Translations under genes and position numbers: made by a program
Shown here: positions 7,720-63,190 of the stretch, piece after piece
How the letters are laid out: every line of letters begins with the position of its first letter
Numbering within the stretch: the stretch's first letter is position 1
From: Tribonema minus
Lineage: Eukaryota > Sar > Xanthophyceae > Tribonematales > Tribonemataceae
Reading direction: 5' to 3'
NCBI GenBank assembly: GCA_017506865.1
Contig: JAFCMP010000073.1
Span: 273,736 to 337,735 of the forward strand
DNA: 64,000 bases
The notes under the pieces: model-generated
Told to the model about the DNA's origin: nothing
Database searches by the model: none
What the model saw: the letters and a program-made list of their open reading frames with translations, nothing else

Positions 7720-10700
7720 CTACGCAGCGCTCTCGGGCACGGTGGCGGTGTCAGTGTCGGATGTCGGCGATAGCGCTTTGCCGCTAGCGCCGGTGGGCGA
7801 CTTGTGCGAGCTGAAGAAAGTCTCGTCGAGTATGGTGGGCAGTTTGTCGACTTGAGGGTGGTGCGCAGCGGCTTCGCGCGAAGCCTTTGCTGCCTCCGCC
7901 GCCGCCGCTAGCGCGTCTGCTTTGGCCTTGGCTTCGCGCTTGACCTTGCTCGCGGAGCGCTTGTGAAGAACCTTCTTCTTGTGCAGCGACGTGTTGAGGT
8001 CTTTGCCTGCGTGCGTTACGGGGTATGTATGTATGGGTGTGAGTGCAAGGTTCGCGAGTGAGTGAGTGAGTCACAATCATGGCAACGCGTCGAGACCTTC
8101 TTTTTGTGCAGCGACGTGTTGAGGTCCTTGCCTGCGCGGGTAACAGGGTATGTATGTATTGAGTGTGAGTAGAAGATGCGCAACTGAGTGAGTGAGTTAC
8201 GATCATGGCAATGTGTTGACAGGCGTTCCCCTGCGGCAGCAGGTGTGTGTGTGAGCAGGTATGAAAGGAAGGGAGTCGCCAGTGATTTCAAGTGAGTCAC
8301 ATTACATGTAATGTCAACAAATCCACCCGCCAGTGTCAGACTCGCCCTGCGCGTGAGTATGCACGTGACCCAGTAACTCAAGGCTACTTAACACTCTCTT
8401 CACGAGTAGACGCCAAATATGATACTCATGTTGAGGGACTGTTGACTCACCAGTCATTTCCCTTGCTTCCTATGCTGACCTATCAGCTAGTACTCTGCTA
8501 CAGCTGTATGCTTTGTCTTGCTGGTCGGAGCCAAGCAAGGAGTGATGCACATGCTGCTGCCACTCCCAGACTATTCACAATAACCATGAGGCGTGGTCCC
8601 ATTCATGAATGAATGCCAAATATACTCAAGTTGAGAACCTGCGCATGAACATCGTAAGCACAGGACCCGGTGTCCCAAGCTACTTGCTACTCTCTTCATG
8701 AATAGACGCTGAAACTATATATACGCGCGTTGAGAGACCGTTGACGCACCAGTCTCAGACGCCACCCTGCGCATGAACAACATAAGCACAGGAGTGAGTG
8801 CCTCAACTGGGACTGAGTGCCGCAAGGCTACGTACTACTCTCTCCATGAATGAACGCCGACACCATATACTTCAAAAAAGAAGTATACTCATGTTGAGAG
8901 AGACTTTGACTCACCAGTCTCGGACGTCGCCCTGCGCATGAAGATACTGTTGGCAGCGGCTTGCAGAGCAGGATCGAAGTGCACGTTCTGTGCGGAGATG
9001 GTCAGGTTCGCGCGTGGCGGCTCCTGGTGGTGCTGCTGGTGGTGAGAGCCACTGCCGTGAATATGTCTTTCGCTCTGGCTCCCTCTGCGTAACAGTGGCC
9101 GCACGCAGCAATGAATACACACAAAGAAGTATATGTAAGTGGGTGTCAGCGATGAGAATTCACATGTCAGTGGATATGTCTTTCGCTCTGGCTCCCTCTG
9201 CGCGCGCGCAAATAAATGCCCACACACACAGAGCGATTAGAATTCCATACATATTTCAGTGGATATGTCTTTCGCTCTCGCTCCCTCTGCGCACACGCAA
9301 AAGTGGCCACACACAGCGATGAGAAACTGCATCAGTGCCGGTAGATGTCAGCGATGAGGATTCAGATTGGGCATTAGTGGATGTGTCATTCATTCTGGCT
9401 CACTCTGCGTACGTGCAAAAATGGCCATACGCAGCGATGAGGATGACAGTCAGGGTTAGGATTGATTCTCAACGTGCGCACAAAGCAAAGATCTGGTAAG
9501 AGGGTGCCCACCTTTCATTGGACTGCGCGTCAGTGAACCTGCGTCCCTTGTTGCCATTGCTCTCCACACCGCCGACGTCAGTCTCGTCGTCCTCGTAGAA
9601 GTACATGTCGCCGCTGTCGCCGCCGGCATACACCTGGAGTACACGAGTACACGTGGAGTACAGAGAGGGTACAGCAGGTCAGAGAGAGAGTACATGTGCA
9701 CCTGGAGTACATGAGTACACGTGGTGAACAGGCAGGGTACAGAGAGTGAAAGAATACAGGCTATCAGCACACAGCAAATCAAATCACCAGATTCGTCACG
9801 AGAGTATGGCTGTTTCGGCCCTTGATAGACTCAGCATCGGCTACACATGTATGTAGACTTCTTTACTCGCCGAGCACAACATGCAACAGCATTGTGCAGC
9901 AGCCCTAACCCCAATCCTAAGAGCTAACGCTGTCCTCTCAGACGCAGGCGTGACACCAGTGCCCAGAGACACCAAAAATGTACAGAGAGACCTGTTTGCT
10001 CGCCAAGGACAACATGCAACAGCATGGCGTAGCAGCCCTCACCCTAACCCTAAACGCTACAGCGTGACTGACATCAGTGCCTAGAGACAACAAACTGTAT
10101 ATGGTGACAGAGGCACTCTTGCGCCACACCAATGGCGAGGCGTAACATGATTACTTCATAGTCAAATTTTGGTCACTTCAAATATGAAGTTTGGACGCAC
10201 CTCCTCGTCGTCGCTGACGGGATCACCCATGCCCTGTGCGATGCGCTTCAGGGTCTGCGTGGAGACCATGCGCGACATGGCTGCGGCGCCGGGGGTAGGT
10301 AGGTAGGTAGAACATGATATGTTAATAAGCACAGTCTAGCAAGTAGAACGAATGCGCATTGAGCGATGAGACCATGCGCGATATGGCTGCGGCAGGCAGG
10401 GGGTAGGTAGGTGAGACAGGTAAATAAGCACAGTGTGGCGAGTAGAGCGGATGCGCGATGAGCGATGAGGCAAGCCACAGGCAGGGGGTAGGTGGGTAGG
10501 GTGCAGAACAGCACATACCCCTGCCATGCCCCTGCATCTATACGTACCAATCTGCTGGTGAAGGTGGCAGTGCTCAGGACGCATGCATATTTACCAAAAC
10601 AAACACCAGCATACCCCACTCATGTAATACATACCTGCCATGGACCTGCTGGTGATGGTGGCAGTGCTCAGGACGCCCAGGTCCGCGCCCGACTTGCGCA

Positions 10701-13700
10701 TGCCCGCGCAGAACTCGGGGAAGCCGATCTGCAGTTCGGGCGACATGGGGATGGCATGTATGCGGTGAGCAGTGCACGCAGCAGAAGCGACGCTCAGCAC
10801 AAGCAGCTGAGAACTAGGTTAGGATTAAGCTCAAGCTGGATCTGGCTGAAGGTCAGCACCATGCATGTTGTCCACGACTGCAGCAGAAAGCTGTTAAAAG
10901 GACCTCACCGTAACCCTAACCCTAACCCTAACCCTAACAAAACAACGCCCATACGCTTGCTCTGACACTATCTTGCAACACCAGGCTGTGAGCTCCAAGG
11001 CCCACTAGCCAAGTGCAGTGCACGCGGCAACGGACGCGTGTGCGTCAGAAGTAGCCAAGAGTCAAATCGCTCAGATTGCACAAGTCAGCACGCAAATACA
11101 TGTGTACATGCACGGCGTACTTGCGGTGGCCAATGTCGACGATGGGCTGGCTTATGCGCATGGCTGAAAATACATGCATGAACGCTGACGCATAGAAGTA
11201 CATGCATACCTCGCCGTTGTTTGTCGTCATGTTGTACAAACTCTGCAGTGGCCTCACGCATCTGCTTCACCTACCTACACAGTACACATACATACTGTAC
11301 ACTGCACAAATGCATACGTGCCTTGCCATCCTTGTCTATACCTACCTACACCGTACACTGTACAATGACATTTTATACGTACCTTGCCATCCTTGTCGTG
11401 ATCAAACTCGGCAATAGCTTCGCGCATCTGCTCATCGCTGAGGTCGCTGCCGACGGTAAACTGCAGGTTCTCCAGGGTGATGTAGCCGCAGTTGTTGTGG
11501 TCTAATCGGTCGAAGGCCAGCCGAAGGCGTTGCTCGTCAAGTTTCTGCCACTTGAGGCCTGCGCAACGGCAGCAGGGGGTAGGCATACAAGTGCTTGTGT
11601 TAGGTATGTATGAGCGCATGCGCAAGCTGTTTCTCCCACTTGAGGCCTGCGCGCAACGGCAGCAGGGGGTAGGTATACAAGTAGGTATGTGGGGTACCGT
11701 CATGTCGCTATTTGAGCTGGCCGGTCACCTGATCAAAACAGGCGTTTGTGTACGTCGGAAATGCGAATTGAATCGAGCCTTTGTATACCCGGTTTCCGCC
11801 ACTTGAAGCCTGCGCAGCACAGGCAGTGGCGGGTAGGTATACAAGTAGGTATGTGCGGTATGTAAAAGCGCATGCGCAAGCTGAGCGACTGATGCATGAG
11901 CAGCGCGTTCGAGACTAGGGCTAGGTCTTGGTGTCTGACGCACAGTGCGCCTGACAGTGTGGTGTGGTGGAGCACTGCTGCTCTGCACGCTGCGGCAACA
12001 GCGGCTTGCGCAGCCGTCAAGGCTCATTCGAAGGGTGCGCGTTTAGCAAACAGCGGTCGAGGGCGGTGCGGCTGCAGTCAAGCATAACGCTAGCCCTGAT
12101 CCCAACCCTAAGCGATCACAGCGGCTTCAAGTTAGCAAACAATTGTCATCGGGCTCCCATTCGACGCCCGCTTCAAGTCAAGTGCCCAGAGGAACGCATA
12201 CCGTGAGGGTCGTTGCACTGGCACACCTCCATGAAAGCCGAGGCAGCATGCACAGCTTGGCAAATGGCTGATGCCCATCCGAACCCTAACCCTAACCCTG
12301 ACCCTGACACACCCTACCGCTACTTGAGCAGCTGCATCACCTTTCTCAACACTGACACTGCCACGTACCCTAACCCTGACCCCAACCCTGACCCTACCCC
12401 TGGCCCCAATCCAGGTAACCCTGGTCTTAAACCTGTTGCATGGTCCAAACCCTAACACTGGGGCTACTCACCAGCTGCCATGAACCCCGTGAAGTGCACC
12501 GTGCCGCAGCAGCCGACGTCGAGGGACTTGAAGATCTGCAAGCACGGGGGCAGCAACGCTCAACACGTGAGACACATGACGTCGCTTGTGTTGTTGGCTC
12601 AAACAAGAGCAGCAGCCGCATAAGTGTATGATACACATGGCACAGTCCGATCCGCTGTGTTGTGTGTAGGGGCGCCGGCGGGCCACGAAACATACAGGGA
12701 CGCATGGGCCACCGGCGGGACGCCTCGCTTGACGGTCTTCCTCATGCACCCTCACGCACTTCGCAACCAGCCTGGAGAAGCCGTGCCCGGTGGCGGGTAC
12801 ATCAACCCCGCCAAGTCTGCCGTCGCCGCTGCCAGCCTGGGCGGCACCGCCATTCGCGTCTTCAAGGGCGCCGGTGCCCCCGAGGCGCCTGTGTCCGACG
12901 ACAAAGACGACGAGGAGTACCTGCAAGATCTTCCAACAGGTACTGAGGGAGCCCCTCCTGGAGAGGCCACTCAAGAAGCAGTGCACCATCACCAGCGTTT
13001 TCAAGCAGCGTCCTAGTGCAGCGTCCTAGATGGCGCCCCAGAAAGAAAAACAAGAACAACCACCGGTGTTTCTATACACCACCCTTCTTTCTACAGGAAT
13101 TTTACCATGAACAGTCTTTTGCAATCAGTCTCCGCCTGAGCTGCAAGCTCCACGTGCCACCTAGGGCCGCGTTGGTGTGACTGCTGCATGTCAGCCAGAG
13201 ACTGCGCCGCATGTGACTGCACACCAAGACCATCACCCCCCTCCTCCTCATGCCCCCTGCTGGTTCCTGGTTTTTGGCTTCATTTTGAGCCATGCCCACT
13301 GCTGGTTCCTGGTTTTTGGCTTCATTTTGAGCCAAAATTGCCGAAAACTCTGACATTCACATGCTGCGCTCATGTCTCAACTGCTGTAAATGCCCCCCCC
13401 CCCTCCCCCTTCGTATGTAGGTAGATGGGTAAATAGGTAAACTTCAATATTGAAGAAGACGCACCTGATCGATGTCCGTGTCACGCAACTTGCACTTGCA
13501 GTTGACAATTGAAGATGACGCACCTGATCGATGTCCTTGTCACGCAAAAGTGCGCTTTCACGCATCACTTTGCGGAAGGTCTCCAGAGATAGCTCGCCGG
13601 TGCCCTCCTTGTCCGCTTTCCTGTAAACGCAAAAAGGCCCAGCAGTGAGCATACAGGAGCAACGCCCAATCACCCATGTATATATGACTATGTGCAGTAG

Positions 13701-16700
13701 GCGTTGTGAAAGTGCGCCTACATGCCAAAGTTTGCCCGCCCCCCCCCCCCCCCCTCCATTGTTTCTGCCTTCACAAGTGTCTCAAAAGGTTTTGTAGTTG
13801 AGCCATGTACTAACTGAGCTGCCACATCTTCTGTAGCGCTGTTCGCAGTAGTGTTTCACGCACTTTCGTATGGCGCACCTACCTGCATGAATTTGTCGAG
13901 CACTTTGATGAGGCTGTCCTTTACACATTTGTGTCTTCTTCATATGTTTAGGTACGTATAGTAGTATGCTCGCCGCGGTAGACACTTGTGCACGATAAGC
14001 AGTGCAGTGTTCCGCAGCGTGTACTGGCTGTGTACCCATCCTGAACTGCACTTGAGCCACGCATGTCGTGGCAACCTCTGCAAAGCTGCTTTTGAGATGC
14101 ACAAACACTTGCGAGTATGCACCGATTCACGGCGAGCACATGGGTGGCCATCAATGAAACCATGAAGGTGCCCTAGTGGGCAACACTATACTGAACAGAG
14201 ACGCGTACAGTACACTGCAGTGCACTGGACAATGACAGTACAGAAGTGTACAGTACACTGCAGTACACTCTACCATTACAGTACAGTAGTGTACCTGAAT
14301 TCTGCCTCCAGGCCGCAGATTTGCGTGGGCTCCAGCGTGCGTGCCACAATCTCCAAAGCGACGCGCTGCGTTGCAGGGATGCGGGCACGGACGAAACTAA
14401 TTTTAAGTTGATGTTTTCATAGCGCAGGTGCAAGTGTGACGTGCCTTACTTGAACGCCCCCCATGCCTGATGGAGCATTTCTATCAAAGCTATCCAGCAC
14501 AGATGCAGGTGCAGTTCACAGTACAGGCGTACTCCCCACATTTTGACGACTTGAAGTGCGCACCTTGAGCACGCTCTGGTCTGTGAAGGACGTGAGCCAT
14601 TACATACTGTTCCTTGCTCGCCATACATGTCCAGGTGTTGTGCACACTCGTACACATAGTTCAACTCAAGAACGACTTGAAGTGCGCACCTTGAGCACGC
14701 TTTGCTCCTTGGAGGACCTGAGCCGTTTCTGTCCCTTGCTCATCACATTCAAGTTTTGAACGCTGCCGCATTAGCGTACTTCAACAACTAATGAACGACT
14801 TGAGGTGCGCACCTTGAGCACGCTCTGGTCCTTGAAGGACTTGAGCCGCGCGGCCACGTCGCTCGAGAGCGGCTGGAAGTTATTACACGGAATATATACT
14901 AAAGCTGTACAAACTTCAACTCAGAAGGTGCACAAACTCTGAAGTTGTACACATTTTCGAGTTAAAACTCATAAATAACTTGGAAGTGCGCACCTTGAGC
15001 ACGCTCTGGTCCTTGAAGGACTTGAGCCGTGCGGCAACGTCGCTCGACAGCGGCTGGAAGTGCATCGAGGCGCGGCTGCGCTTGAGCTGCAGCCACGGGT
15101 GTGCCTGCGCCTCCTTCGCCGTCATGCGCCTGAGTCAAGAGTCACATAAGTGAGTAAACAAGTCGTGGGTCAGAGTCACAATGACTGCGCTTGAGCTGCA
15201 GCCACGTGAGCGCCTGTGCCTCCTTTGCCGTCACGCGCCTGAGTCATGAGTCACAAGTGAGTAACGAGTCATACATCAGGATCTCAACTGCTGCGCTTGA
15301 GCTGCAGCCACGGTTTCGCTGCTCCTTCTTTGCCAGGTCTGATTCACGGGTCAAGAAGGAGTAACCAAGTCACAAGCATGAGTGGTCCAGAATCTACAAT
15401 GGCATACACACCCTTGCAAGAGGAGCACGCAGCATGTTGCAAGGGGCGGCCGTCAAAACAGTGCAGCACATCTACAGACAACATCACACGACCAGCCGAA
15501 GCATGTAATTGATTTAATAATGTGCGTACCCTGATGGCAGTAACAGCAGTTGCAGTGGGGAGACTCCATGAGACTGACCTGCTGGGATCTTTGACCAGCA
15601 GCCGTGCGATGAAGTCCTTGCAGTCAGGGCTAGCCACCTGCAGACACGAGAAACGTAGCACAGGACACATGAGGCGCATAAAACATGAAAACACACTCTC
15701 GTCAGTGAAGTGCATGCCGGCTTTGTTGACTGCGCCGCATGTCGCTAGAGGGGAACAATGCCTGTCTTGCACTTCAACTTGATTTTCAAGAACCGTCGTT
15801 GCATCTGTCACGCAGCCTTGAGTGTCCATGCCTGCCTATATACCACCCATCTTCCGTGTTTATGTCAACGTCCCTTGTCTTGAGCATGTGCTGCAGCATC
15901 TGCAGCGGCTCTCTACTTTGCAAAATGCGCGCATGCTTACATACATACATACCTGCGAGTCTCCAGTGTACGCATGTATCGGATAACAGTAGTCACCATA
16001 ATAGTAGTCACGCTACATGCAAGCCCCACATGACCTTCAGTGTCCATGCATGCCTATATATATACCTCCCAGTCTTCTGTGTCCATGTCGACGTCTTTTG
16101 TCTTGATCATGTGCTGCAGCATCTGCAGCGACTCCGCCATGAACGGGAACCGCCCCACCATGAGCGTGTAGGTGATGATGCCGATGCTCCACCTGCAGCA
16201 GCGCTCCACAACATGTTCACGTTCATGAACGAAAATCTGCCGACCATGAGTGTGTAGGTGATGAAATGCCGATACTCCACCTGCAGCAGCGCTCCACACG
16301 TGTTCACTTTCGTTGAAATAAAATGTACCCACCACCATCAACATAGCAGTTTTCAAGCATTACACATTCAGACAGTCATCCCTATACCTCATCTTCATTC
16401 ATGCTTTCACTCCTTGTGTGCGGATTCAGGCACCACACTCCACGATTCAAGATCAACTCACTCGGTGATTCATTCATGCATTCATTCATGAATACGGTTC
16501 CTAAGCTCACATGCCCACGGGGTACGCCCCGGGTGCCCAGCATTGCACCCATAAATTCGTCCATTCAGGATTTTACTTGTTGTTGGTGTGGTTGGTAAAT
16601 CAGCCCAACCTGGCTAGCACACGTGGCTTCCTGACGCAATAGAAGGGCCTGCATTACATTTTACTTTGAAAAATTACGAAAATCTATTATTGCGGCGTGT

Positions 16701-19700
16701 TTGTAATAAATAAAAACGCTCTGGCAATTTATTACACGCGCCGGTGGGCTAGTGAAAAACGAATCAAAGTATCGTTGATATTTTGATCACCAACACTGCA
16801 TGTTTCCTACGTGTTGGGCAGGACTGAGAGGAGCATAAGCTCTCTTGGCGGTAGTGCTGCACACAAGTGGTTGCGGTACACAACCTACGACTGCAACTGC
16901 ATATCGCGAATCTGCTGCTGTTGTCCGCACCTGCCTTTGGCTGAGACATGAGGGGACAGAGATCATGAGCTTGCAGGCATCGCAAAGGTGCTGCTGCCAC
17001 AGGTATTGCGATCACGATCTACAACAATTTACGTTCTCTCCACCAGGCCCAGCTGCGACACAGCGTCCATTAGATCTGAGTGCACACCCACTTGGAGCAT
17101 ATATTACACGAATGTGTGGCATTTCGGCTGCTGAGACTCGCAGCTCCTGCCGTTTTGGCGCTGCACACCTCGCGACGGCGGGTCACTCGCTACATCCCTG
17201 CGCAGTTGTTTGCACTGCGGCCTGACGTTGGCTGCTGCGGAAGTCCTGAACTGCTGACATTCTGATAGAGTGCTCGCCACGTGCTGGTGAGGCTGAATCC
17301 TACTGAGCACTGATGTCACTCTTGACGTTCCACAACAACAGTAGAGAGTGTTTGTCCATGCTACGTATCGTATAGGGTTGCCGGCATCGTAGATTCTGGG
17401 TTATTTAGGACGTAAATCGTAATAGTAACGTGACGTATCGTAAGTAAATGCTGTAAATCCTTAGCACCTTGCTTTTAGGACGTAAGTTGTAATCGTCACG
17501 CAAGTACACCGTAATTGTGAAACGTAATTGCCGTAAATGGTCGTAAGAATGCACCCCCCCCCTGGCATCTGGATTGGGCCAGTTCACACGCCGAAGTACC
17601 TGAACGATGACATGATGTGTCCAGCAGCTGTTGACAAAAAAGAAGAGAGCAAGCTATCCAATGACGAATATCTGCTGCACTAGTGAAGCAGTGCAGGGAT
17701 CAACATGCGCTTGTTGGCAGGCGCGCTCTGTTGTTTCGCTGCAGCTGCGTGGGGTTGCTTGAGAGGTGCTGGATGATCGTCTCACCGCCTTGACAGCCGA
17801 GGAGTGCTTGCTGCAGTAGTTACACTTGATGAGGCTTTGGCTTTCACAAGCTCGCGCTCCACCAGGAATGTTCGCCTGCCTCTACTGTAGTTGAATGCGC
17901 TTAGCATCAACAACAAGCACCCGCCTTGCGCAAGCCCTCGGCCTGCCTGAGGCTGCCAAGCACCTCGACCTCCACCTTCACCTGTTCGTCCTTACATTAA
18001 AACTCGCAAGGTGCACCACCACCTCACGACTACGACTGCTACACATTTTTTCTTCTTCTCTCCGTTTTGGTAACGGCAAATCAGGATTACCGCAAGTCAA
18101 GCGTAAGATTACATAAAGCTTTCAAGAATGTACGACACTTGGCCTTAAGTTACGGCAGCGCGTATTTACGAAGGCCTCTAGACTTCCGACATGATTTAAG
18201 GCGGTAAAGTTTACCCGTAAATTTACAATTTACTATTCCAGCAACCCTTGAATCATGAACAAAGTGAACTTTGAAGTTCACAAACTCACATATCCACGGG
18301 ATAAGGGCTATGCTGCCCCTTAAACACCTCTGGGCTCATGTAAATCCACTGTAGATCCAAAGAGTAGATCCAATGTAGGTCCAACGAGTAGATCCAAAGA
18401 GCGGGCAGAAAAGAGCGGGCAGAAGTGGCACGCAACAGAAAAAAAATTAGTCACTGCTGAGCATGTGTCTTACGTATTGGGCAGGACTGGGGGGAGCATA
18501 AGCTCTCTTGGCGGACACAAGTGGTTGCGGCACACAACCTACGACTGCAACCGCATATCGCGTATCTGCTGCTGTTGTCCGCACCTGCCTTTGGCTGAGA
18601 CATGAGGGGACAGAGATAATGAGCTTGCAGGCATCGCAAAGGTGCTGCTGCCACAAGGTATTGCGATCACAATCTACAACAATTTACGTTCTTTCCACCA
18701 AGCCCAGCTGCGACACAGCGTCCATTAGATCTGAGTACACACCCACTTGGAGCATATATTACACGAATGTGTGGCATTTCGGCTGCTGAGACTCGCAGCT
18801 CCTGCCGTTTTGGCGCTGCACACCTCGCGACGGCGGGTCACTCGCTAAATCCCTGCGCAGTTGTTTGCACTGCGGCCTGACGTTGGCTGCTGCGGAAGTC
18901 GTGAACTGCTGACACTCTGATAGAGTGCTCACCACGTGCTGGTGAGGCTGAATCCTACTGAGCACTGATGTCACTCTTGACGTTTTAAATGAGTGTTTCG
19001 TCCATGCTACATATCTGCAGCACAACTACATAGCACCACAGTTCCGCAGTGCTTGATGACTGTTGCCGTTTGAGCTTGACAGTGTTCAAGGGGATTGCAC
19101 AAGGTCAGATATAGGGTACAATTGACAGCGCAGCCTAGGCTGCTGCGTTGACGCAAGCTTTTCGATTGCATAGGCAACCCGGCCTCCCTTGGGCCTTTAC
19201 AAATACAAGTCCATACGTACAATTGAACCTCTCATTGAGGTGTACGTAGTACAGAATGAGTACAGAGTGCAGTGCGTACCGTTCCCACAATGTCGCGCAT
19301 CATCTGCGCCTGCGTGCCCGTGGTGCCAAGCCCAAAGTCCACAATCTGCGCGTACATACATACATGCATGAATATATGAGTGAGCGAGGTAGGTAGGTAA
19401 GGCCAATGGCGACGCATCGTGGGCGTCTCGGGCATCATTGGAGGGGTGAATGCGGAGCATCATCGGAGCTTTGTCATCAAGACCACAGTCCACAATATGG
19501 TCGCGCGCGAACGGGGCGTACAAGCACAGAACAGCGACCATCCCCTCAAGTCGAACAAAGGTGGGTATGTAGGTACGTGCGTGCCGGGACCAAAGCCCAC
19601 GAGCTGTGCGTGCGCATGAAGTATGAGCCAACAGCATGGCAAACGTGAACACTGATGATGTGCAAAGGGCCAGCTGATGCCAGGGCAGAGAGCGCGGTGA

Positions 19701-27525: not shown

Positions 27526-28281
27526 CTACCTGTCTTTCCCGTCATCCTCCTGCTGCTCTCGGAGCCTCTCATCTCGTTGCTTGAGCAGCCTGTCGAACAA
27601 GCCCATCCGGCGCGCCTCCGTCTCGCGCAGCTGCTTCCTCTCTCGCACATCCAGCAGTTCCTTCTCCTCGGGCAGCAGAGCATCCGCACTACCGCTTGCG
27701 ATAGTATATGCTGGTTGCGATACGAGCGCTGCGATTCCAAGCGCGCCCAATGCTGCGACCAGCGCCAGATTGCCTGCCTCAGGGCCACCACTGCTGCCAA
27801 TGCCTGCCTCCAGCAGCGGTGAAAACAGGCCCGTAGTCACGATGGCTGCCAGCAGAGCGAAGAAGTCAGGAGCCTCCACGGACCTGACCAGAGGCAGGGA
27901 ACCCAAGAACATCCCGCAGAAGACCCAGTCGCCCCTCAAGACTCCCAGCTGCAGCGCCAGAAAGTAGATCACTCGCAGCTCCGTGAGGCCAAAAAAGTTC
28001 AACTCGCGGGTGAGGAAGTCGACGGCGCCGATGGAGGCCTGCACCACCGCAGGCTCATCGTCTTCGTCCTCTTCGTCGTCGTCAAACCTGCGGGCACGCA
28101 GCGCGGGTCCGGCCCTGATGGTGCCTGTCTTGAAGGCCATGGCCACCTTCAAATCGTGTACATTTGGCTGCTGAAGACGAGATCCGGCATGGGTGTTACC
28201 CAGGCAGAGGGGAGGCAGCAGCGGCTGTGACGCTGGAGGAGATCGTAGCAGCAGCGACGGTATCACCGTGTAGCACCGCAT
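27526..28281 (-). CDS. Conserved-looking multi-pass membrane protein, possibly plastid-targeted
   Basis: Single-exon 251-residue frame from an ATG at 28281 to a TAG. The N-terminus (MRCYTVIPSLLLRSPPASQP) is hydrophobic then basic and Ser/Pro-containing, which fits a transit peptide. A later ATG at 28141 (MAFKTGTIR) is an alternative start. An acidic patch (FDDDEEDEDDE) precedes three hydrophobic segments, around VIYFLALQLGVL, FFALLAAIVTTGLF and LALVAALGALGIAALV. The C-terminus is charged and helical (ERKQLRETEARRMGLFDRLL). No family recognised; localisation is inference. Confidence 0.65.
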   Translation of the reverse strand: MRCYTVIPSLLLRSPPASQPLLPPLCLGNTHAGSRLQQPNVHDLKVAMAFKTGTIRAGPALRARRFDDDEEDEDDEPAVVQASIGAVDFLTRELNFFGLTELRVIYFLALQLGVLRGDWVFCGMFLGSLPLVRSVEAPDFFALLAAIVTTGLFSPLLEAGIGSSGGPEAGNLALVAALGALGIAALVSQPAYTIASGSADALLPEEKELLDVRERKQLRETEARRMGLFDRLLKQRDERLREQQEDDGKDR

Positions 28282-38935: not shown

Positions 38936-41900
38936 ATGCTGCGCTTCAGCAGCGAGAGTCCCGAGGAAAAACGGGAGAAACAAAAGGCCTACCATCACAG
39001 GCTGGATGAGCAAGTCCAGGAGCAAAAGCTGAGACAGGTGTGCATGATTCGGTGCACCGCTTCTTGTAGCTGTGCGCTAACGCTTGTTCCTCGGTGAGCA
39101 GATGCCGTGCCTCATCTTAAAGGAGGATTGCGTGATGAACGAGCGCAGTGCAGACGCCTCTGAACTTGAGTTGTTCTGCGCTGAAACAGTAATTGTAATT
39201 CGTGGTGTCATGCACGTTCGTGAAGGCCCGTAAGCGTTGAAATGAGTCGATAAAGTGATGATGACTGGTGAGTACATAGAGTGAATAAAGCCGTGCAACC
39301 ACCTGTTGTTGGTGTCAACTTCGTGCTGCCGGTGGCCATGAGTCTGGAGCTGAAATATTTACCTGGTGGCACTGTTTGACTCGTGGCCAATGACTGCAGC
39401 AGCGGCGACCACGGTTATTGGTGGAAGGCACTTGCGGCTAACCATCCCTTGTCACCTAGAGCTCAACGATCTCGATCTTTTTGATTCGTTTTTCATTCCT
39501 CCACTCGACGGCGTCAACACACGGGTTTGGTTTAGGCCTGTATGCTGATGCAATGCTGCTCTGACAGCTATGTGCTGGTGCATGCGTGCTCTATGCCTAA
39601 GTTAAAACATATTGCATCACCACGGCTGCAGAAAACACATAGAGTTCACTGCCCTGGCGACTGATGGTGTTTAATGGGAGGCAGCTCATATATAAATAGC
39701 ACCAATATCACAGCGTCTTATCTGCTGTGCAATACGCTCTCTTGGTTACCCTGAATGTTTCTTTGACATCGATGCCTCAAGTGACAGCCTTCATGAGGTG
39801 CCAGCAGGGCCATGTGATCTTTGCCTGACCATAGGAGTGCTACATTTGCCAGCGTTGCAGGGTAAAAAGTGTGCGTTTGGCGGCCTTGCGTTGCGGCTGC
39901 TCTCCAACCTCTGCAAATGGCAACCTCATAGAGTCTATCAGCCTTAAACTGACACAACGTCAAGCGCACACGCAGCGATGTCACAGTCCCCGGTCATGCG
40001 GCATTGCAGATGGAGGAAAGTTCTGGGCCCAGGCAGGTACAGTTCCTGCAGGCGCGTCCCCCGAGTCACTTTCCAGCTGTGTCACCGCCCTACGGCGTCA
40101 GCGCCAGCAGCGCAGCCAAAGCGGCTGGCTTGACGGCGCAGGCAAGTGCAACTTCATCTTCAACTCATAGACCTGATGAGGGGTGTCGCGCTGTTGAAGA
40201 TCTCAACCATCAAACTCAACATTGAAGTACTGCTGGTGAAGCGCTCAACACTGAAGCAGCATTAAAAAGTGCAGTAGCCAGTGCAGTTGCAATCGCACCT
40301 GGAAGATGATGAGCAGCTTCATGTTGTGCAACTTTACAGGGCATGCCAATGATGTGCTTGGTCATCCGCGTACACGTGATCTGTGAGAAGATTTTGAGAT
40401 TTTTCAGGATGGTGCACGGCCCTCAACTGCCGCTCTGCGTGCCAGCGCTGACGGCGGCGGCACACGTCGACAACGTGTGTGGACATTCGCAGCCGCGCTG
40501 CTGACGCCGCTATGAACGCGCGGACTTACACGCTGCGCCGGCGCTCACAGTGGCTGTACATATATACCTACCTACCAATGCATGAGCACTGCTGACGGCG
40601 GCCGCACGTGTCGACACCAACGAACATGTCAGTGTCAATGCATTCACGGGCGCGCTGCTGATGCCGCCATGAACTTGCACACCGACACGCCGTGCCAGCG
40701 CTGGCAGTGGCTGTTCATACCTACCCACCAACGCATGAGCACTGCAGACCGCCAACACTGACCGCGCTTTTGTCCCCCATGCCCCCCTCCTTACCAATGC
40801 ATGAGCACTTGAGACCGCCAACACTGACTGCGCTTCTGTCCCCCATCCCCCCCCTTGCCCCTCCCCCCAAAACGCAAACAGCCCCCCTCCAGCACGGGCC
40901 GCACGCGCCAGCGCAGCCCCCAGCCCTCCCCCTACCAGAGCCGCTCCCCCATACCCCTCTCCATACTGCTAGACGAAGCAGGCCCCGACACCACCGCCGC
41001 CGCCGCTGCCTACGCCAACGGCGGCGGCGCCTACGCTAATGGCGGCGCCTATGCTAATGGCGGCGGCGGCGGCGGCGGCGGCACCGTTGCGGCGGAGGTG
41101 GCGGCGGCGCTGTGGGGAGAGCTGCAGCGGCTGGCGCGGAACGCGGAGGCAGAGGCGGCGCGGCGGCGGCAGCTGGAGGGCGCGGTGGGCGCGGCGCGCG
41201 ACGCGGCGGCGGCGGCACGCGCGGAGGCGGCGGCGGCGGGCGCGGCGGCGCTCGCGCAGCAGCGCGACGCGATGGCCGGGCTGGAGGGCGAGGTGTGCGT
41301 GAACTTTAATTTTGAAGTCATACATACTTCAGTTTTGAACTCATGCTGTTCAGTGCTGTGAATGTGGTAGTCTGGTGTTGCGTCGGGGCGACAGTGGAGA
41401 CGGCGGCGGCGGGTGCGTCAGCGGCGGCGCAGCAGCGCGACACGATGGCGGGGCTGGAGAGTGAGGTGCGTGTGAACTTCAGGTTCGAAGTTGTGCTTTA
41501 TTTCTGAAGTGATGCTGTTCATCAGTGCTGTGCACTCGGCAGTCTGGTGTGGCGGCAGGGCAAGCACGGAGGCGGCGGCGGCGGGCGCCGGCGCAGTGGT
41601 GCGGCAGCACGACGCAATGGCCGTGGCTAGAGCGTGACGCGTGCATGCTTCAAAGCTGAATTAGTACTTCGAAGTACCTCAAATTTGATTCACCAACACT
41701 TCACAGCGCTGTGGATCTGGCGGTCTGTTGGTTGGTCGACGGGGGCAGCCGCAGTGACTGCAGGCACAGAGCACATAGAGTCTGCGGGCTGCAGAACACA
41801 GCACTCGCTCGAAGCCGCAATACGACAAGCCGCTTCCAAAAGCGGGTTCCGAAATTCCCTGCTGCCGATAGTGGCGCTGCCACTGGTTCCAGCGCACCAG

Positions 41901-44900
41901 TCGCCACAATGTGAAATGGCCAACTTCAACTTGAACTCCCAAACTTCTTTTGCAGCTGCGCGCAGCGCGAGTGGCGCTCGCGCGCGGATCTCGCGCTCGC
42001 GCTGGCGGCGGCGACGGAGCGCCATGCGCTGCAGCACACACCTGCAGACTGACCAACTTCAACTTGCACTGTCAAACTTCTCGTGCAGCTTGTGCGCGAC
42101 GCGCGAGTGGCATTTCGCGGCGCTGCAGCGCACCAATCCCACATCAATGTACACTCACCAACTTCAACTTGAACTACCAAATTTCTCTCGTGCAGCTGCG
42201 TGTGGCATGCGAGTGGTGCTCCCGCGCGGACCTTGCGCTGGCGGCAGCGGCGGCGGAGCGCGAGGCACTGCAGCGCGAACCAACCACCTTGAAAGTGAAC
42301 TGACCAACTTCAAATTGAAAGCCACCTGAACTTCAACTGCAGCTGCGTGCTGCGCGCGAGTGGCACTCCAGCAGTGGACTCCCGCGGCGCTGCAGAGCAC
42401 CAACCACTTCAAAGTGAACTAGTCAACTTCAACTTAAACTTTTTATCTTGTGCAGCTGCGCACGGCGCGCGAGTGGCGCTCGCGCGCGGACCTCGCGCTG
42501 GCAGCGGCGGCAGCGGAGCGCGAGGCGCTGCAGCACACGAATCATTCTCAATGTGAACTAATCAACTTCAACCTGAACTGCCAAACTTCTCGTGCAGCTG
42601 CGTGCGGCGCGCGAGTGGCGCTCGCGCGCCGACCTCGCGCTGGCGGCGGCGGCGGCGGAGCGCGAGGCGCTGCAGCGGCAGGTGTCGCTGCTGCAGGAGG
42701 AGGCGCGGCGGCGCCTGGACGGCGACGACGCGCGCTCCAAGCGCGTGCAAGACGCGTTGCAGACGGTGGCGAGGGAGGTGCGTCACCCCTCATGAACTTC
42801 ACTTTGATAACCCTCGGCAGTAACCTCAGCTGCATTACGCGGCGCGCGCGGTTGAAACGGGCATGGTACGTGCTGCAGATAGTAGCGGACGGCGACGACG
42901 CGCGCTCCAAGCGCGTGCAGGACGCGCTGCAGACGGTGGCGCGAGAGGTGCGTCACCACTAATGAAGTCATGTTCAACTTCAAAGTGCGTGCTGCGCCTG
43001 AAGTGCAGCGGAAGATGCGTTCGCGGCACCCTCGACAGTGAACGTCACATTCTGCAGTACGTGTGACGCGCGCTCCAAGCGCGTGCAGGACGCGCTGCAG
43101 ACGGTGGCAAGAGAGGTGCGTCACCCCTCATGAACTCCAAAAACTTTGACAGTGCGCCCATATGCGTGGAAGATGCATTGCAGGAACTTCCGGGCAGTAA
43201 CAAGAGAGGTGCATCACCCCTTTCAAAGCTGATGTTTATCTCTGCACAGTACGTGACGACGCGCGCTCAAAGCGCGTGCAGGACGCGCTGCAGACGGTGG
43301 CGAGGGAGGTGCGTCACGCTCAGTGCAACGTCAAGTGTTGCAGTGCATGACACGTGATCGAAGCGCGTGCCTGGACGGCGACGACGTGCGCTCCAAGCGC
43401 ATGCAGGACGCGCTGCAGACGGTCACGCGGGAGGTGCGTCACTTCTCATGAACTTCAGTTGTCAACCTCGGCAGTGCAACCTCAGCTGCTGCAGTACATG
43501 ACGCCCACGGTCATAGTGGGTTTGGTGCAAGCAGCACCTTTTCATGAAACATGCCATTTCAACTAGTTTGTCATTTGTGACAATCGATGCGATCAAGCCA
43601 TGGCAGCCGCGGCCGTTTGCGCCCGTGTGCACAGGCAGAAGCTGCATCACTGAAGCGGCGCACGGCTCAGGCGGGGGCGATGCAGCGGCGCAGCAACCTC
43701 GACGCACCCCTCACTGGGTGCTGTCAGCAAACGAGTGTCTGACAGTTGATGCGGCTAAGTCATGACAGCAGCAACCGTTTCCGCCCGTGTGTGCAGGCAG
43801 AAGCTGCGTCATCCAAGCTGCGCACGGCTCAAGCGGGGGCTGTGCAGCGGCTCAGCAACCTGGAGGCAGCGCTCACCGGCGAGAGCAAGGCCCTCAGGGA
43901 TAACACCGAGAGGCTTAAGGAGGGGCTGGTGGCCGCTGGCAGAGCTATCAAAGAGGGGGAAGCCAGGTGAGGGGCTTTGGAGTGTCACCTAGTGGAGTGT
44001 CACTTGTTGAAGTAGATGTTGTCCTGCTGAAATAGAGGTGAACGTAGGTGATGGGCTTCCAAACGTCCCCTAGTTGAATGCCTCTTGTTTAAGTCGACAA
44101 TGTCCTTTGAAGTAGATCGTCAGCTTTGTGCCTCAAACTTCATGGTGTAGAAGTCATGGCAGGGCCATCAAATAGGGGGAAGCCAGGTCAGGGGGGGCTT
44201 CAGCAGTCTTACTTCATTTGTTGAAGTAGACTATGTCCTTTGATGTAGAAGATGAGGTCATATGCCTCGAACTGTACGTATACATAGCTGGCAGGGCCAT
44301 CAAGTAGGGGGAAGCCAGGTAGGGGGCTTCGGCGCGTCCCCTACGTGGAATGTCACTTGTTGAAGTAGGTAATGTCCGTTGAAGAGGAAGTTCGGGCATG
44401 TGCCTCAAACTAGAAGTATACTTCGAAGTATGTATAGGTAGCTGGCAGGGCCATCAAGGAGGGGGAAGGCAGGTGAGGGGCTTCGGAGCGTCCCCTAGCG
44501 GAACGTCACTTGTTGAAGTAGACGATGTCCTTCGGAGTAGATGGCTCTAAGCTGTATGTATATGTAGCTGGCAGGGCCATCAAGGAGGGAGATGCCAGGT
44601 GCTGGGGCTGGCAAATCTTTGAAATCATCTTTGTGCAAGTGCTGAATTCGAAAACATGCACGTGTTTGCAATGATCCTCTCGCCAGCTCTTGTGCCAACA
44701 TGGGGCTCTGGCGCGTCCCTAGTGGAATGTCACTTGTTGAAGTACACGATCTTCTTCGAAGTAGAAGATGAGGTATGTGCCTCTAGCTGTATGTATACCT
44801 AGCTGGCAGGGCCATGAAGGAGGGGGAAGCCAGGTAATCGGGCTGGTATGTCATCATTGTGCTAGTGCTGAATGCAAAAATTGTGTCTGTCTTCGCAGGC

Positions 44901-47900: not shown

Positions 47901-50900
47901 AAGATGATCATCGCAGACTTGGATGCATGTCGTCAGCATGAGAATACATACGCTCATAACCTCCATTAAATCGCCATTTGTGCCATGCAATACATGCACG
48001 GAGCCTAATTGTTCCTGCACATAGATGATGGCCTAGGCATCTGCGCGTGGCACTAGTGACAAGTCATCGAGTCAGCGAGCCTCGGTGAGTCAGCGAGACA
48101 CCAAGGCTTTCACTGTGGTTCAGCTTCCACGCAGAGCACCATTGCCAGCCTCGGATGCACGCTCTCTCTAGCCCCAACCCTGACTGCCACCCTGACCCTT
48201 TTTACAAACCTGTGGTACACCTGCAGTCCAACCAGTGTTGCACACATGTACTTTTTATTAATTCTCGCTCAGGGCGCGAAAAAGCCCAGATGATTGGCAT
48301 CTAGCTGTAAGGAATCTACATGTCGTATGACAGTCTGAAAGTGTCGCAACGACAACCACTGTACTTATTTTGATTCTCGCTCACGGCCCGAACAAACCCA
48401 GATGGTAGATGTCCAGCCTGCTACCAGAATCTGCATTCTTCATGTGAAAACCTCCAAGTATTTCAATGCGTACTGACAATCACTTAATGTACATCAATGC
48501 CAGCATGCATTCCCAACGGCGTGTCATTGAGTCATCGAATCGTTTCGCCTGCCGCAGAGCGCCATCGCCAGCCTCCGCCACTCACTGGACGCCGAAGGCG
48601 AGCTGCGCGAGCAGGCCACCGCCGCCGCCACTGCAGCCATTGCCGCCGCCGCCAATGACAGCGCTGCTGCGCGGGACAGGCTCAGAAGCGCTCTGCAACT
48701 CAAGGTATGAAGGGGGTGCAAGTGTGTGCTTAGGGGTATGTATGTATGCGGTTGTAGTTTGTGTGCAACGCATGGTGTGGGGCGTCCAAACATTGGCTGC
48801 CCGTGTGCAGTCATACTTGCAGCAGCAGGTTCGCTACGTCGTGGGGTACATACTGACAGTACCGCAGATTTGTGCGCGTCGCCACCGCCGCGCACAGGCC
48901 CATGCATGCCGCTGCCACCGCCGCCTCCGCTGCCGCCGCCGCCGCCACCGCAGCCATTGCCGCCGCTGCCAACGACAGCGCCGCCGCCCGGGACAGGCTC
49001 AGAAGCGCTCTGCAACTCAAAATATGTACGTAGGTATGCGGTGGTTTTTTGTGTGCAACGTGCGGTGGGGCGGCCAAACATTTGTGACGCTGTGTCCGTA
49101 GACATTTAGGGTTGAAGCTAGAGCTAGATTTGGGGTTAGCATCGGGTTAGGGTTAGGGCCAATGGTAGCCATGCAGTCTCATGGGGGCTTGCTGCAGCTC
49201 GCGCTATTCCTACGGTGGGATGTGTGTTGTCGGAGTAATAGACAGCGCTCGCAGTATAAGAGCACACGGCATGTGGTGAGTGTGCGCTATGGCATTCACT
49301 ATGGCTGACATGCCATGAAAACGGCAGGCGCGAACGCCCATATGCGACTCATCGCAGAGGGTGGCATGTGTGCCCTGTTCAAGAGCCTTCGACGCAACGT
49401 AAACAGGACACACATCACTGAATTGCGTCTGTTCTAAAGCTAGGTTGTGCCCAACCAAGGGTGACGGTCAGTATCAGGGTTGGCGATAACGCTAGGATGC
49501 TGCTGGTAGGCCCTGGTGCGGTTTTTAAACAACTTAAAATACGCTAGGGCTAGAGAGCAAGGTTACCAAACCCTCACCCTGGGCCCTGACTATGCATTGC
49601 AGCCAGCACGTCTGTGGCTAGACCATCGCGCAGCACAAGTAATTGAATCAGGCTGTGCGCCAGATACCTGGCATACTTGTACCAATCAATACAGATTTCA
49701 TGAGTGAAGCCCTAACTTAGTGACCCTTATCCTAATCCTAACGCTAACGCTGTCCATGCAAGCTCGTCTCGGTTTGCCATTCCCCTATCATGTACTTCGC
49801 AGTAGTGCCAACTTACGCTGACGCCGACTCTTAGGATTAGGTCAGAATTGGCACATGGGGTTAGGGTTAGGGTTAGAGTGTTGCTTTTGGCGTGCTACCA
49901 TGCATATCTCGCTGGTGAATCAAGCGAGCTTGTTTCCGTTCCCTTGCTTGATCCACAGGTGGAGTCTGCTATTGCATCAGCAACCAAGGAAGCCACGGCG
50001 GCCATTCACGCGGAGGCGGGGGCACGTGGCGAGGAGGTATGTATGCATATGCATCCACGTGGCATGTATGTATTCACATAGAGGAGGTGCATACCTCGGT
50101 ATGCATGTATCTATGGATGCCTCCACACTTGTGTATGTACACTTGAAAGTACTCCTTTTGCTGGTTTGCTGCTGTCGAGACCGCAGAATGTTCGGTGCGG
50201 CAAACAGCGTTGGCATTGTATGAGATGGCGATGCGATCAGGACACTTCATACAGGGCAAGTGGGTATGCTTAAAAAGCGAGCTGCGCCAAGCGGCACGCT
50301 GAGAGGATGTTTATGTCTGCATGCATGTACTCATCCACACCTTGTGCCCACCGCTTCGCCTGCATGCAAGTCTGATTGTAGCTGGAGGCACTGCGGCGGC
50401 GTGCACCAGACACCAGTTACTTCAATTTTTTACTTCAAGTGGCAGGCGGCAGCACGACCAGCACAGCACGGCATAAACTCCACTCAAACTGTGTTCCGGA
50501 CCAGGCTTTTTCTTTGCCCTTGCATTCCTTGCGCCGTTGCTGGAGGCGCTGTGGCGGCGTGCACAAGCAAGAGTTGCGTGTGCAAAATCACAATTCCGCC
50601 AAACTTCAAGCACAACTTGAAGTGAACAGCGGCGTGACACTGATATCATGATATCCCCCCCCACACACACATACACACACATACACACACATACAGGAAC
50701 TCACGCCGCGCTCGGTTGCAGCTGGAGGCGCCGCGGCGGTGCACACCCGCATGAATCTTTGCTGCTGACGTGACGCGACGTTGAACTTCAAGAACAACCT
50801 CAACTGACACTAATGCCGACCCGTGCCTTGTGCATTCCCCGTGCTGTAAGAGCTGGAGGCGCTGTGGCGGCGCGCGCAGGCTCAAGTTGTCGCCGCCGAC

Positions 50901-53282
50901 GCGGACCAGCGGCGTAGCAAGTCTTTACTTTGTGACACCAAAAGAAACATCAACTGAAACTGATGCGGAATCGCCCATTCTCCGCGCGGTGACAGCTGGA
51001 GGCGCTGTGGCGGTGGACGCAGGCGCGTGTCGTCGCCGCCGACGCGGACCAGCGGCGCTGAAGTTTAAGAGAAACTCAACTGACACTGCTTTCGAACTGC
51101 TCATGCACTCTCTGCGCAACTTCAGCTGACGTGGAATTTGTACTGTGCCTCATGAATTTCCTGCGCATTCGACAGCTGGAGGCGCTGTGGCGGCGGACGC
51201 AGGCGCGGATCGTCGCCGCAGACGCAGACCAGCGCCGCTGGGCCGAGCAGCGCCTGCTCACCGTCGTTCAGCTGCTGCGCGAGTTTGAGAACAACCTGCG
51301 TGGGCTGCGCGTGGAGGTGGCGGAGCTGCGCGAGTGGGCGAGCTCGGGGGGGGGCGGGGACGTGCAGGTGCTGGAGGGGACGATGGCGGGGAGTGCGGAG
51401 GGCGGGGGGTACCCCGGGGACGGCGGAAGAGAGGTGGGCATTGTACGCTAGCGCTAAGTTGAAGTTGAAAGCATGGTGCGGTGTACTGTGAGTTGCGTTG
51501 CGGGTCTCACTTTGAAGAAGAGGTAACGTCGCTGCTTGTTATGAGGGGGGGGGGCGTGGTGCTGGAGGGGACGATGGGGGGGTTGCGGGCGGGGGGGGGG
51601 GGGGGGGGGGGGGGTTGGGGGTGGCCCCAGGTAGGCGGAAGAGAGGTGGGCGTTGTGGTGGCAGGGTTGGGTAGCTTTGAGCTGCGCGCACTGCACGCGG
51701 CAGTGTGAATTCTGTTGCGGATCTAGAGTTGGGAGAGAAAGAAAGTGGTATAGCCGCTTTTGATGGGGCGGGACGTGCAGGGGCTTGAGGGGACGAGGTG
51801 CGGGGGGTGGGAGGGCGGGGGCGGGGGGTGGGGCTTGCCCCGGGGAAGGCGAAAGCGAGGAGGTGGGTGTTGTAGAGTAGCTTCAAGTTGTAGTTGAAAA
51901 CATCGTGCGGTGCATTGTGAATTGCGTTACATATCTCATTTTGAGAAAGAGGCAACGTCACAGCTTGGTGTGAAGGGGGGGGCGTGGTGCTGGAGGGGGC
52001 GATGACCGCAATACAATCAAGATGACATGGCACGTCACCTAAGTTCGACTTTATGCACGTCACGCCTGCCGTGTCTGTTGGTCTTCCACACCGCGCAGAG
52101 CGGCGATCAGGATGAGCGCTGGGGCGATGGCGCGTCACCGCTTGACGCACAAGCGGGAGGCTACGGAGGCGTAGACGGCGAACCGCAAGTTGAAGATGAT
52201 GGGCCGGAGGGCAGTTACAGCATTGAAGTACACGCCGCCGCAGCGCTCGCGCCGCGCGCCAACGCGCTGACCGCGCTGATGGCCGAAATGCGCGGCGAAG
52301 ACGACGGCGACGATGGCGAGAGTGGCAGAATCAGTGGCGAATCCAACGGCGTAACCGATGGCGAAATTGGCGGCGAAATAGATGCCCAAGCCGACCAAGA
52401 ACAGGCTTTTGACGGCAGAGAAGGTGGAGATGGTGGCTATGACGATGGCGGCGAGGAGCAGGGCGGTGACGATGGAGGCGGCTATGAAGGCGACGGTGGC
52501 GCTGATGAAGGGGGGCCTGAGGAGGAAGGGGGCCCTGACTCTGAACCACAGGTGCGTGACTTCGACTCTAGAACAACGGTTTCTGGGCACTGGCAAGCTG
52601 AAAGCACAGCAGTTGGGAAGGCTGCTGGACTCAACTGGCTCTTGAGATTTGGGGGCACATAGAACGCATTTGGCAGGCAGGTGTGAGGCACTGCCCCGCC
52701 AGCAACGCTCTGTCGATGATGCTCAACCAATGAAGCCTCAGTTAGCAGCGTTCAGCCAGCACACGCTGCGCCCGCGCTCCTCTTTCACCATAACGCCACC
52801 AGCATAGCGCATGTTGCAGTGTGGAAAACAGGGAGTGGATGACATTTTTCCCGGGGACCTTTGCGGCCAACACTGCTTCCAATGGGAACCGCCGCTTGCG
52901 CTGCTTGATAGCGGCGTTGCCTGCCTCCACCAACCACCAAGTAGCATGCGACTTGCCAAGCGACTTGAAGTTGTGGCGCCTGCGTTGGACCGACACTGAC
53001 TGCTGAGCGTTGCCACTGCACCCGCAGGCGCTCCACAGCGGCGGCGGCGGCGGCGACAGCGGCAGCGGCGAAATGGCACCGTCGCACAGCCAGCAACGCC
53101 TGCACTCCTCCGCATCGCAGCGCAGCACCAGCGGCAGCAGCGGCGCAGCACCGGCTGGCTCATTGTCGGCAGCGTCGCTGCACGGCAAGGCGGCGCAGCA
53201 CGGCGGTTCGCGCGCCGCCGACGATGGTGAGCCGGAGGGCGACTCCGAGGAGACGGACGAGACGGCGGCGGACAGCACTTGA
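38936..53282 (+). CDS. Long coiled-coil protein, about 15 exons
   Basis: Predicted structural or scaffold protein of roughly 1000 residues. Exons: 38936-39037 (may begin at 38882 as an internal exon), 40010-40141, about 40912-41292, 42598-42777, 43797-43966, 44899-45021, 45446-45743, 46040-46150, 46722-46952, 47139-47204, 48558-48704, 49959-50036, 51176-51433, 52099-52551, 53028-53282. Nearly all junctions are phase 0; two are phase 2 and match. The first exon (EEKREKQKAYHHRLDEQVQE) has a charged helical pattern reminiscent of centrosomal or ciliary proteins. The middle is Ala/Arg/Glu/Gln heptad-like (AREWRSRADLALAAAAAERE, LRAGLAAEAEARRRGIAQLG). It ends with an acidic Gly/Glu/Asp region (exon 14) and a Ser/Gly-rich tail with TGA. 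The second intron may use a GC donor (40142). Function unknown; 5' end uncertain. Confidence 0.75.
40430..40850 (+). repeat. Tandem repeats upstream of coiled-coil exon 3
   Basis: A long unit of about 170 bases (gctgacggcggc..cacgtcgacaac to cctacctaccaatgcatgag) occurs about twice, followed by two shorter units sharing catgagcac, gagaccgccaacactgac and tgtcccccat. It is not clearly exon-derived. Confidence 0.75.
41390..41640 (+). repeat. Copies of the coiled-coil exon 3 3' end plus donor
   Basis: Exon 3 ends AAAGAAALAQQRDAMAGLEGE with donor gtgtgcgtgaac. It is followed by copies at about 41400-41465 (AGASAAAQQRDTMAGLESE, donor gtgcgtgtgaac) and 41570-41637. Both copies keep the exon tail, the second without an evident donor; the unit is about 170 bases. 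Confidence 0.9.
41950..42597 (+). repeat. Five copies of the coiled-coil exon 4 5' end with acceptor
   Basis: The true exon starts at 42598 (LRAAREWRSRADLALAAAAA). Copies with their own tgcag acceptor lie at about 41955-42035, 42085-42130, 42195-42270, 42340-42400 and 42455-42537, each preceded by a caacttcaacttgaac spacer. Several retain an open reading frame. Confidence 0.92.
42835..43445 (+). repeat. About five copies of the coiled-coil exon 4 3' end plus donor
   Basis: Exon 4 ends GDDARSKRVQDALQTVAREV across the donor gtgcgtcacc. Copies lie at about 42888-42955, 43067-43122, a fragment near 43170-43212, 43255-43313 and 43376-43440. Four of them end in gaggtgcgtcac, so each preserves a strong donor; the fragment near 43170-43212 ends gaggtgcatcac. 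Confidence 0.92.
43605..43720 (+). repeat. Copy of the coiled-coil exon 5 5' end with acceptor
   Basis: The block from cgtttgcgcccgtgtgcaca through gcagaagctgcatcac to gcagcggcgcagcaacctcg duplicates the exon 5 acceptor and start (AEAASSKLRTAQAGAVQRLS at 43797). Confidence 0.88.
43985..44850 (+). repeat. About five copies of the coiled-coil exon 5 3' end plus donor
   Basis: Exon 5 ends AGRAIKEGEAR with donor gtgagg. Copies of ggcagggccatcaaggaggg followed by a gccaggtgaggggc-type donor occur near 44160, 44290, 44450, 44570 and 44805, joined by a ttgttgaagtagacgatgtc spacer. Unit about 130-230 bases. Confidence 0.9.
46955..47715. repeat. Dense array of degenerate CCCTAA/CCCTAG repeats in coiled-coil introns
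   Basis: Runs include five ccctag units at about 46970-46998, four ccctaa units at about 47318-47341, and mixed blocks at about 47400-47640, interleaved with tgcgtgac, caggtgc and aagcgg words that look like reiterated splice-junction pieces. Confidence 0.85.
48840..49025 (+). repeat. Copy of most of coiled-coil exon 11
   Basis: The exon 11 3' half (AAATAAIAAAANDSAAARDR to LRSALQLK) recurs at about 48925-49022, followed by a gtacgtaggtatgcggt block like that after the real exon. The retained frame could be spliced in only through a different acceptor. Confidence 0.85.
50375..51175 (+). repeat. Five copies of the coiled-coil exon 13 5' end with acceptor
   Basis: The exon 13 start, ctggaggcgctgtggcggcg preceded by cag or an equivalent ag, is present at about 50382, 50541, 50720, 50852 and 50996 before the real exon at 51176. 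Similarity reaches further into the exon (RTQARIVAADADQRR) in the nearer copies than in the distant ones. Confidence 0.92.
51434..51880 (+). repeat. Copies of the coiled-coil exon 13 3' end plus donor
   Basis: The exon tail (gtgctggaggggacgatggc to ggcggaagagag, donor gtgggc) recurs at about 51557-51660, with a 26-base G-rich run inside, and at about 51775-51870. Each ends in an aggtgggtgttgt-type donor. Confidence 0.88.
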
Positions 53283-62972: not shown

Positions 62973-62982
62973 CAGCTGAGGT

Positions 62983-63182: not shown

Positions 63183-63190
63183 AGGCGTAC

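Follow-up and report, generated by a model that had tools for sequence, protein, structure and literature searches.

Introns of Tribonema minus (Xanthophyceae) contain copies of their own exon-intron junctions, an observation that was made in a preliminary description of one stretch of DNA and that is confirmed here. Local repeats in these introns are biased towards junctions, which is supported in the genes tested, and the reading that we favour (with a probability of roughly 0.65) is that tandem duplication recurs preferentially at exon borders and is tolerated since splicing keeps to the outer sites.

Setting and gene models

The window, i.e., the whole stretch of 64,000 nucleotides that was analysed, is the end of a contig (C73) in a genome of 158.2 Mb. 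Two genes have exact exon models. The first, on the reverse strand of the window (7720-24315), encodes a protein resembling calcium-dependent kinases with EF hands and comprises 18 exons and 17 GT-AG introns, which yield a single open reading frame of 737 codons, stop codon counted. This model rests on exon-by-exon alignment to two transcript-derived homologous proteins from EukProt: P0002, which is close (89-100% identity in most exons), and P0001, which is clearly diverged, more so than P0002, and which may come from a relative or be a paralogue. The exon numbering is our own and differs from that of the preliminary description. The second gene, CCT-gamma (locus L029), has nine exons and eight GT-AG introns, and its translation, rebuilt from the locus, is identical to an annotated NCBI protein of Tribonema minus (P0057). 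Models for six other CCT loci (L024-L028 and L030) consist of Pfam-supported exon cores alone, with approximate edges and some exons missing, and that for a seventh further locus (L031) consists of three exon cores. A homologue search with the coiled-coil protein encoded in the window gave no match, and the exon edges of its gene are hence approximate segments. The name of the decarboxylase-like region was assigned by eye. Near the contig end, the reverse strand carries a 2905-residue open frame (54510-63227) that is reverse-transcriptase-like by eye and holds an internal 330-base repeat at 61775-62429.

Copies at the kinase junctions

Exon-only alignment, in which a match had to exceed by more than 8 score units the best match to shuffled introns and to other introns, detected a copy of the exon in its own adjoining intron at 15 of the 34 junction sides of the kinase gene. 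The 34 local repeat pairs of this gene fall into 16 families, 14 of which overlap an exon, while one abuts exon 16 and one is intronic only. Adjacent copies are spaced 68-223 bases apart, close to the unit of 90-230 bases originally proposed. The claim that some exons are flanked on both sides by fragments of themselves also holds, for kinase exons 2, 3, 7, 9 and 17. The features are as follows:

22534-22704, reverse strand: true kinase exon 2 (P0001 match, GT-AG)
22768-23145, reverse strand: three upstream copies of the exon 2 5' part with its acceptor (22768-22846, 22925-23003 and 23068-23145; 79, 79 and 77 aligned bases with 5, 9 and 7 differences; AG intact in all three)
22442-22516, reverse strand: two downstream copies of the exon 2 3' part (22487-22516, with GT; 22442-22480, short of the donor)
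21250-21441, reverse strand: true kinase exon 3 (homologue alignment)
21591-21657, reverse strand: upstream copy of the exon 3 5' part (6 differences in 67)
20772-21179, reverse strand: four downstream copies of the exon 3 3' part (21073-21179, 21030-21064, 20893-20956 and 20772-20837; divergence 7, 14, 14 and 23% with growing distance)
15845-16280, reverse strand: exon 7 (16066-16192) with an upstream 5' copy (about 16226-16280) and a downstream 3' copy (about 15845-15911)
14564-15334, reverse strand: exon 9 (14994-15129) with upstream 5' copies (15185-15238 and about 15290-15334) and three downstream copies of its 3' part (14813-14880, 14690-14726 and 14564-14598)
13465-13488, reverse strand: short downstream copy of the exon 11 3' part (24 bases, GT intact)
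11383-11883, reverse strand: exon 13 (11383-11558) with two upstream copies of its acceptor region (11629-11682 and 11792-11883)
10368-10582, reverse strand: copy of the exon 14 3' part (10552-10582) and copy of the exon 15 acceptor region (10368-10469)
9699-9742, reverse strand: exon 16 acceptor region in copy (its true counterpart lies directly against exon 16)
8670-9441, reverse strand: exon 17 (8915-9084); its acceptor is copied upstream, within 9170-9441, and its donor once downstream, at 8670-8777
7720-8219, reverse strand: exon 18 (7720-8006) with its acceptor region copied head-to-tail (8095-8219, 85% over 125 bases)

The kinase introns also hold repeats of other kinds. A direct repeat of 574 bases (16798-17369 and 18461-19015, in introns 6 and 5, 93% identical and 1.66 kb apart) is element-like and unlinked to junctions. 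Interstitial telomere-like repeats (CCCTAA/TTAGGG) are frequent between 9903 and 49879 of the window, where, among the 18 clusters listed out of 19, 11 lie in kinase introns and five at 46-50 kb. A five-repeat telomere-like word has 3123 + 2303 matches genome-wide (overlapping ones counted), and a long run of CCCTAA opens contig C2. Such repeats as a required trigger of junction copying can be dismissed, being absent from L029 and L030 despite the strong arrays there.

Enrichment at junctions and its controls

Of the 25 local repeat families found in the kinase and CCT-gamma taken together, 22 are in contact with a splice junction: 15/16 in the former and 7/9 in the latter, where six families overlap an exon, one abuts an exon and two are intronic only. 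Would duplications placed evenly along these genes look the same, if those spanning a junction were seen more often, selection having frozen their exon copy, and those internal to exons were purged? Exon-derived stretches of the copies have decayed less than many intronic ones, and duplications inside exons would disrupt proteins. However, even placement of units of the observed lengths (purely exonic units and those holding a whole exon left out) predicts junction contact for 19% of units in the kinase and 26% in CCT-gamma, and for 32% and 42% even with twofold better detection. At these higher shares the binomial chance is 5e-7 (kinase), 0.03 (CCT-gamma) and about 1e-7 (both pooled, share 0.36). 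Furthermore, when exons are masked, five of the 22 junction-linked families, visible through their exon part alone, are lost, but 17 are still detectable from intron sequence, as against three intron-only families. The starts of these 17 lie 1-3 bases from the exon edge in nine cases, 6 and 11 bases from it in two and 37-147 bases from it in six. Since most families survive masking, the enrichment does not stem mainly from a frozen exon copy, and exon conservation as its sole cause is ruled out. Start and stop borders, which are equally protected, show copies at score 44 in 0/8 cases, a small sample in which four stops were placed by the reading frame of the final exon core. Even duplication is therefore, on these controls, an unlikely account, and we infer that the input of duplications is itself border-biased.

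The copies are also sided, as had been claimed for exon 5' ends reiterated upstream and 3' ends reiterated downstream. When 70-base exon ends from eight genes, six of which contribute, were aligned to their flanks, 5' ends matched upstream in 15/54 cases and 3' ends matched downstream in 17/54 (score 44), versus 0/54 each on the opposite sides. Tiles from intron interiors, members of the junction arrays among them, also have a match nearby in 47 and 50 of 431 cases, so that the contrast by that measure is only about 2.6-fold.

None of 21 families takes more than 60% of its exon (two genes, entered by hand; simulated chance 0.0035), and the 5' and 3' families of one exon (kinase 2, 3, 7, 9 and 17; CCT-gamma 5) are free of overlap in 6/6 cases, for which the chance is 0.15; a positioned nucleosome with breaks at its borders would fit both, which is conjecture. 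No signature was found at breakpoints. Several downstream families have little intron sequence in common past the donor, and head-to-tail duplication is thus not clear for every family; short-period rows, in which the two compared sequences overlapped, were left out of these intron-extension alignments.

Age gradient and decay

Similarity had been described as falling with distance from the true exon, and comparison within arrays bears this out. Over 50 pairs of copies, each pair from one array, the balance in favour of greater divergence at greater distance is a net +31 (p 0.0005 by permutation, copies of one array being non-independent). The nearest copy is the least diverged in 7/9 arrays; the two that depart from this lie 3' of kinase exon 2 (13%, 13%) and 5' of CCT-gamma exon 5 (5%, 3%). 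From this gradient, new copies seem to be made beside the exon. Arrays reach up to eight copies, with units of 70 bases and more. An assembly artefact (collapsed haplotypes or read errors) could be invoked, tandem repeats being difficult to assemble, but copies that diverge by about 3-23% from the exon, some with indels, and that are present in several contigs make it scarcely credible.

Of 39 exon-derived copies aligned in the kinase and CCT-gamma, 32 come within three bases of the junction, with a mean identity of 91%, and splice signals are retained in most of them, in line with the initial claim: the donor GT is kept in 19/20 and the acceptor AG in 11/12, little above what 91% identity predicts. 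Differences from the exon amount to 49, 37 and 104 at the three codon positions (about 675 sites each), and changes unique to a single copy to 23, 13 and 38, an excess at third positions (p 0.0016); a further set that shows the excess was chosen by protein similarity and is biased toward silent change. Such an excess arises under serial copying because an early copy retains states that were later changed silently in the exon, which needs no constraint, although weak constraint would explain it too. The test is therefore no demonstration of copy function.

That selection keeps the copies, their extra splice sites aiding exon recognition or giving useful isoforms, would agree with this third-position excess and with the strength of the copied sites (below). 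Changes nevertheless pile up at first and second codon positions too, some copies have indels, the dinucleotides are hardly better retained than the rest, and no copy is visible in the few proteins at hand, all of which makes selection an improbable explanation. By sequence, the copies look neutral rather than functional.

Splice-site strength and choice

Matrices built from 25 true sites of each kind place all the decoys scored (16/16 donors and 11/11 acceptors) at or above the 10th percentile of true sites, whereas among all GT and AG dinucleotides of introns the true median is reached by 2.3% and 1.1%, respectively. These 27 decoys are drawn from the 32 anchored copies. Of the five others, three have GT but gapped alignments, a fourth lacks GT, and in the last, the copy upstream of exon 3, the junction lies one base off. 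Such strength is expected, because decoys descend from true sites, but it has a consequence: local strength is no explanation for the fact that outer sites alone show in proteins. No use of copies is visible in P0001, P0002 or P0057, and each exon part is present once in the kinase and CCT-gamma proteins, as it is for CCT-gamma in three other stramenopile proteins. The idea of a large reservoir of alternative splice sites thus stands as far as strong signals go, but not in any use visible in these proteins. Outer sites would rather be chosen via exon definition, in which sites are paired across the short true exon. The start of P0002 aligns to 13521-13715 (reverse strand), just before kinase exon 11, which suggests some intron retention or an alternative start.

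Copies elsewhere in the window and genome

Three genes on both strands of the window had been reported to share the pattern, and it is indeed found in the coiled-coil gene and also in a decarboxylase-like segment, both on the forward strand, in addition to the kinase. Copies in these two regions come from tblastn (E up to 0.01; low-complexity chance matches elsewhere uncounted):

41227-41622, forward strand: coiled-coil segment 41227-41295 with two downstream copies
41960-43439, forward strand: coiled-coil segment 42595-42783, flanked on both sides by copies of itself, four upstream (5' part) and four downstream (3' part)
48600-49021, forward strand: coiled-coil segment 48600-48704 with one downstream copy (48932-49021)
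50540-51340, forward strand: coiled-coil segment 51173-51340 with three upstream copies of its 5' part
3222-3592, forward strand: decarboxylase-like coding segment 3222-3290 with two downstream copies of its 3' part

By contrast, the ends of the open reading frame at 28134-30005 (labelled bHLH-PAS in the preliminary description, which described that gene as lacking the pattern) and of three other long frames have no copy at the threshold (scores 17-29 versus 44).

Beyond the window, junction copies are present in five of seven further CCT loci. Six of these together have 24/32 families linked to junctions, by incomplete exon models (L024 8/9, L025 2/3, L026 2/2, L027 6/9 and L030 6/9), the two of L026 being short and below score 44. 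L028 has no repeat family, and the sole family of L031 (0/1) touches no known exon core. All genes counted, 46/58 families are junction-linked. In blind samples (fifteen 10-kb stretches at round coordinates, chosen unseen), 16/54 families cross a boundary of a segment scored as coding, versus 8.2 expected by shifting (p 0.004); these stretches include an Rpn1-like proteasome gene (L014) and a phosphatidylinositol 4-kinase-like gene (L017), both named by eye from peptides. At the level of domain profiles, whose sensitivity is too low for counting, an echo is rare (about 4/56 CCT and 2/132 kinesin matches, by reading the matches).

Two of the samples, L013 and L011, contain long satellite-like tandem arrays with periods of about 400 and 130 bases. 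Elsewhere in the genome, contigs C334 and C112 carry fragments of an rbcL-like gene (loci L003 and L004), whose translations look red-type, as would suit a xanthophyte. Several contigs have cox1-like fragments; both kinds are probably organelle DNA in the nucleus.

A proposed model for junction-anchored intron growth

In the border-biased duplication that we favour, (i) short tandem duplications, with copies about 70-220 bases apart, would recur at exon-intron borders, (ii) each duplicated unit would span the splice site, with a piece of the exon on one side and of the adjoining intron on the other, (iii) the outer, original site would stay in use, leaving the extra copy inside the intron and the protein unchanged, (iv) the embedded copy would drift neutrally and (v) further rounds at the same border would push older copies inward, so that introns would lengthen from both ends. 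As for the cause of the bias, our tentative preference is for breaks or stalled forks at borders (through polymerase pausing, RNA-DNA hybrids or exon-set nucleosome edges), followed by fill-in or template-switch repair. A bolder possibility is that a directional process, acting across the genome and coupled to transcription or splicing, might duplicate borders, so that introns grow from their ends, while the spliceosome, under strict exon definition, takes the outermost of several equally strong sites.

Relation to known systems

Intron lengthening is usually ascribed to mobile elements and random insertions, and introner elements in algae are a mutational process altering intron content across the genome. 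The Tribonema copies resemble introners in being the mark of a mutational process that changes intron content, but they share no mobile sequence: at the 15 flagged kinase junctions, the exon segment finds its match in the adjoining intron and in none of the remaining kinase introns. NAGNAG acceptors are tandem alternative splice sites, and here too duplicated sites lie next to the true one; unlike NAGNAG, the Tribonema units are at least 70 bases long and include exon sequence, their arrays reach eight copies and no use is seen.

Closer parallels come from tandem duplication. The potato RdRp gene gained a single intron by tandem duplication across an intron-exon boundary (PMC4974935), with a unit that, as in the acceptor families of kinase exons 2, 7, 9, 13, 15, 17 and 18, includes an intron end, a splice site and part of an exon. 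That was one event creating a new intron, whereas in Tribonema many junctions of several genes are concerned and the copy is absorbed by an old intron; neither a new intron nor a raised exon number was seen in the kinase and CCT-gamma proteins. A different route, in which an exonic AGGT segment is duplicated in tandem and an intron results (Rogers 1989 and Hellsten 2011, as cited in PMC4974935; Drosophila cases in PMC2891723), could have left the copies as remnants of intron birth. It likewise involves local tandem duplication with the protein left unchanged by splicing, and it yields exon-end copies inside introns on the sides observed. The Tribonema units, however, span existing junctions, and in the readable alignments a copy is continued by intron sequence rather than by the following exon. 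Moreover, no intron 5' end matches the 5' end of the following exon, and no intron 3' end matches the 3' end of the preceding exon, at a score of at least 36 in the 25 introns tested (0/25 for either signature; maximum 17 in both), by which intron birth of this kind is contradicted in these introns and, as a source of the copies, very improbable. Of the proposal that introns have grown from copies of their own junctions, expansion therefore fits, 24% and 45% of intron bases in two genes lying in local repeats, but origin does not. Among titles and abstract openings, mostly without subscription papers, we found no report of genome-wide junction-anchored duplication, nor of such duplication in Tribonema.

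Outlook

These arrays offer a layered record of duplication that can be read at single junctions and dated by divergence, in ordinary housekeeping genes. They also amount to a natural experiment in how splice sites are chosen, with several equally strong donors or acceptors within a few hundred bases, and their exon-like decoys may mislead gene prediction in such genomes. If the input of duplications is junction-biased, Tribonema minus would harbour a mutational process coupled to gene structure.
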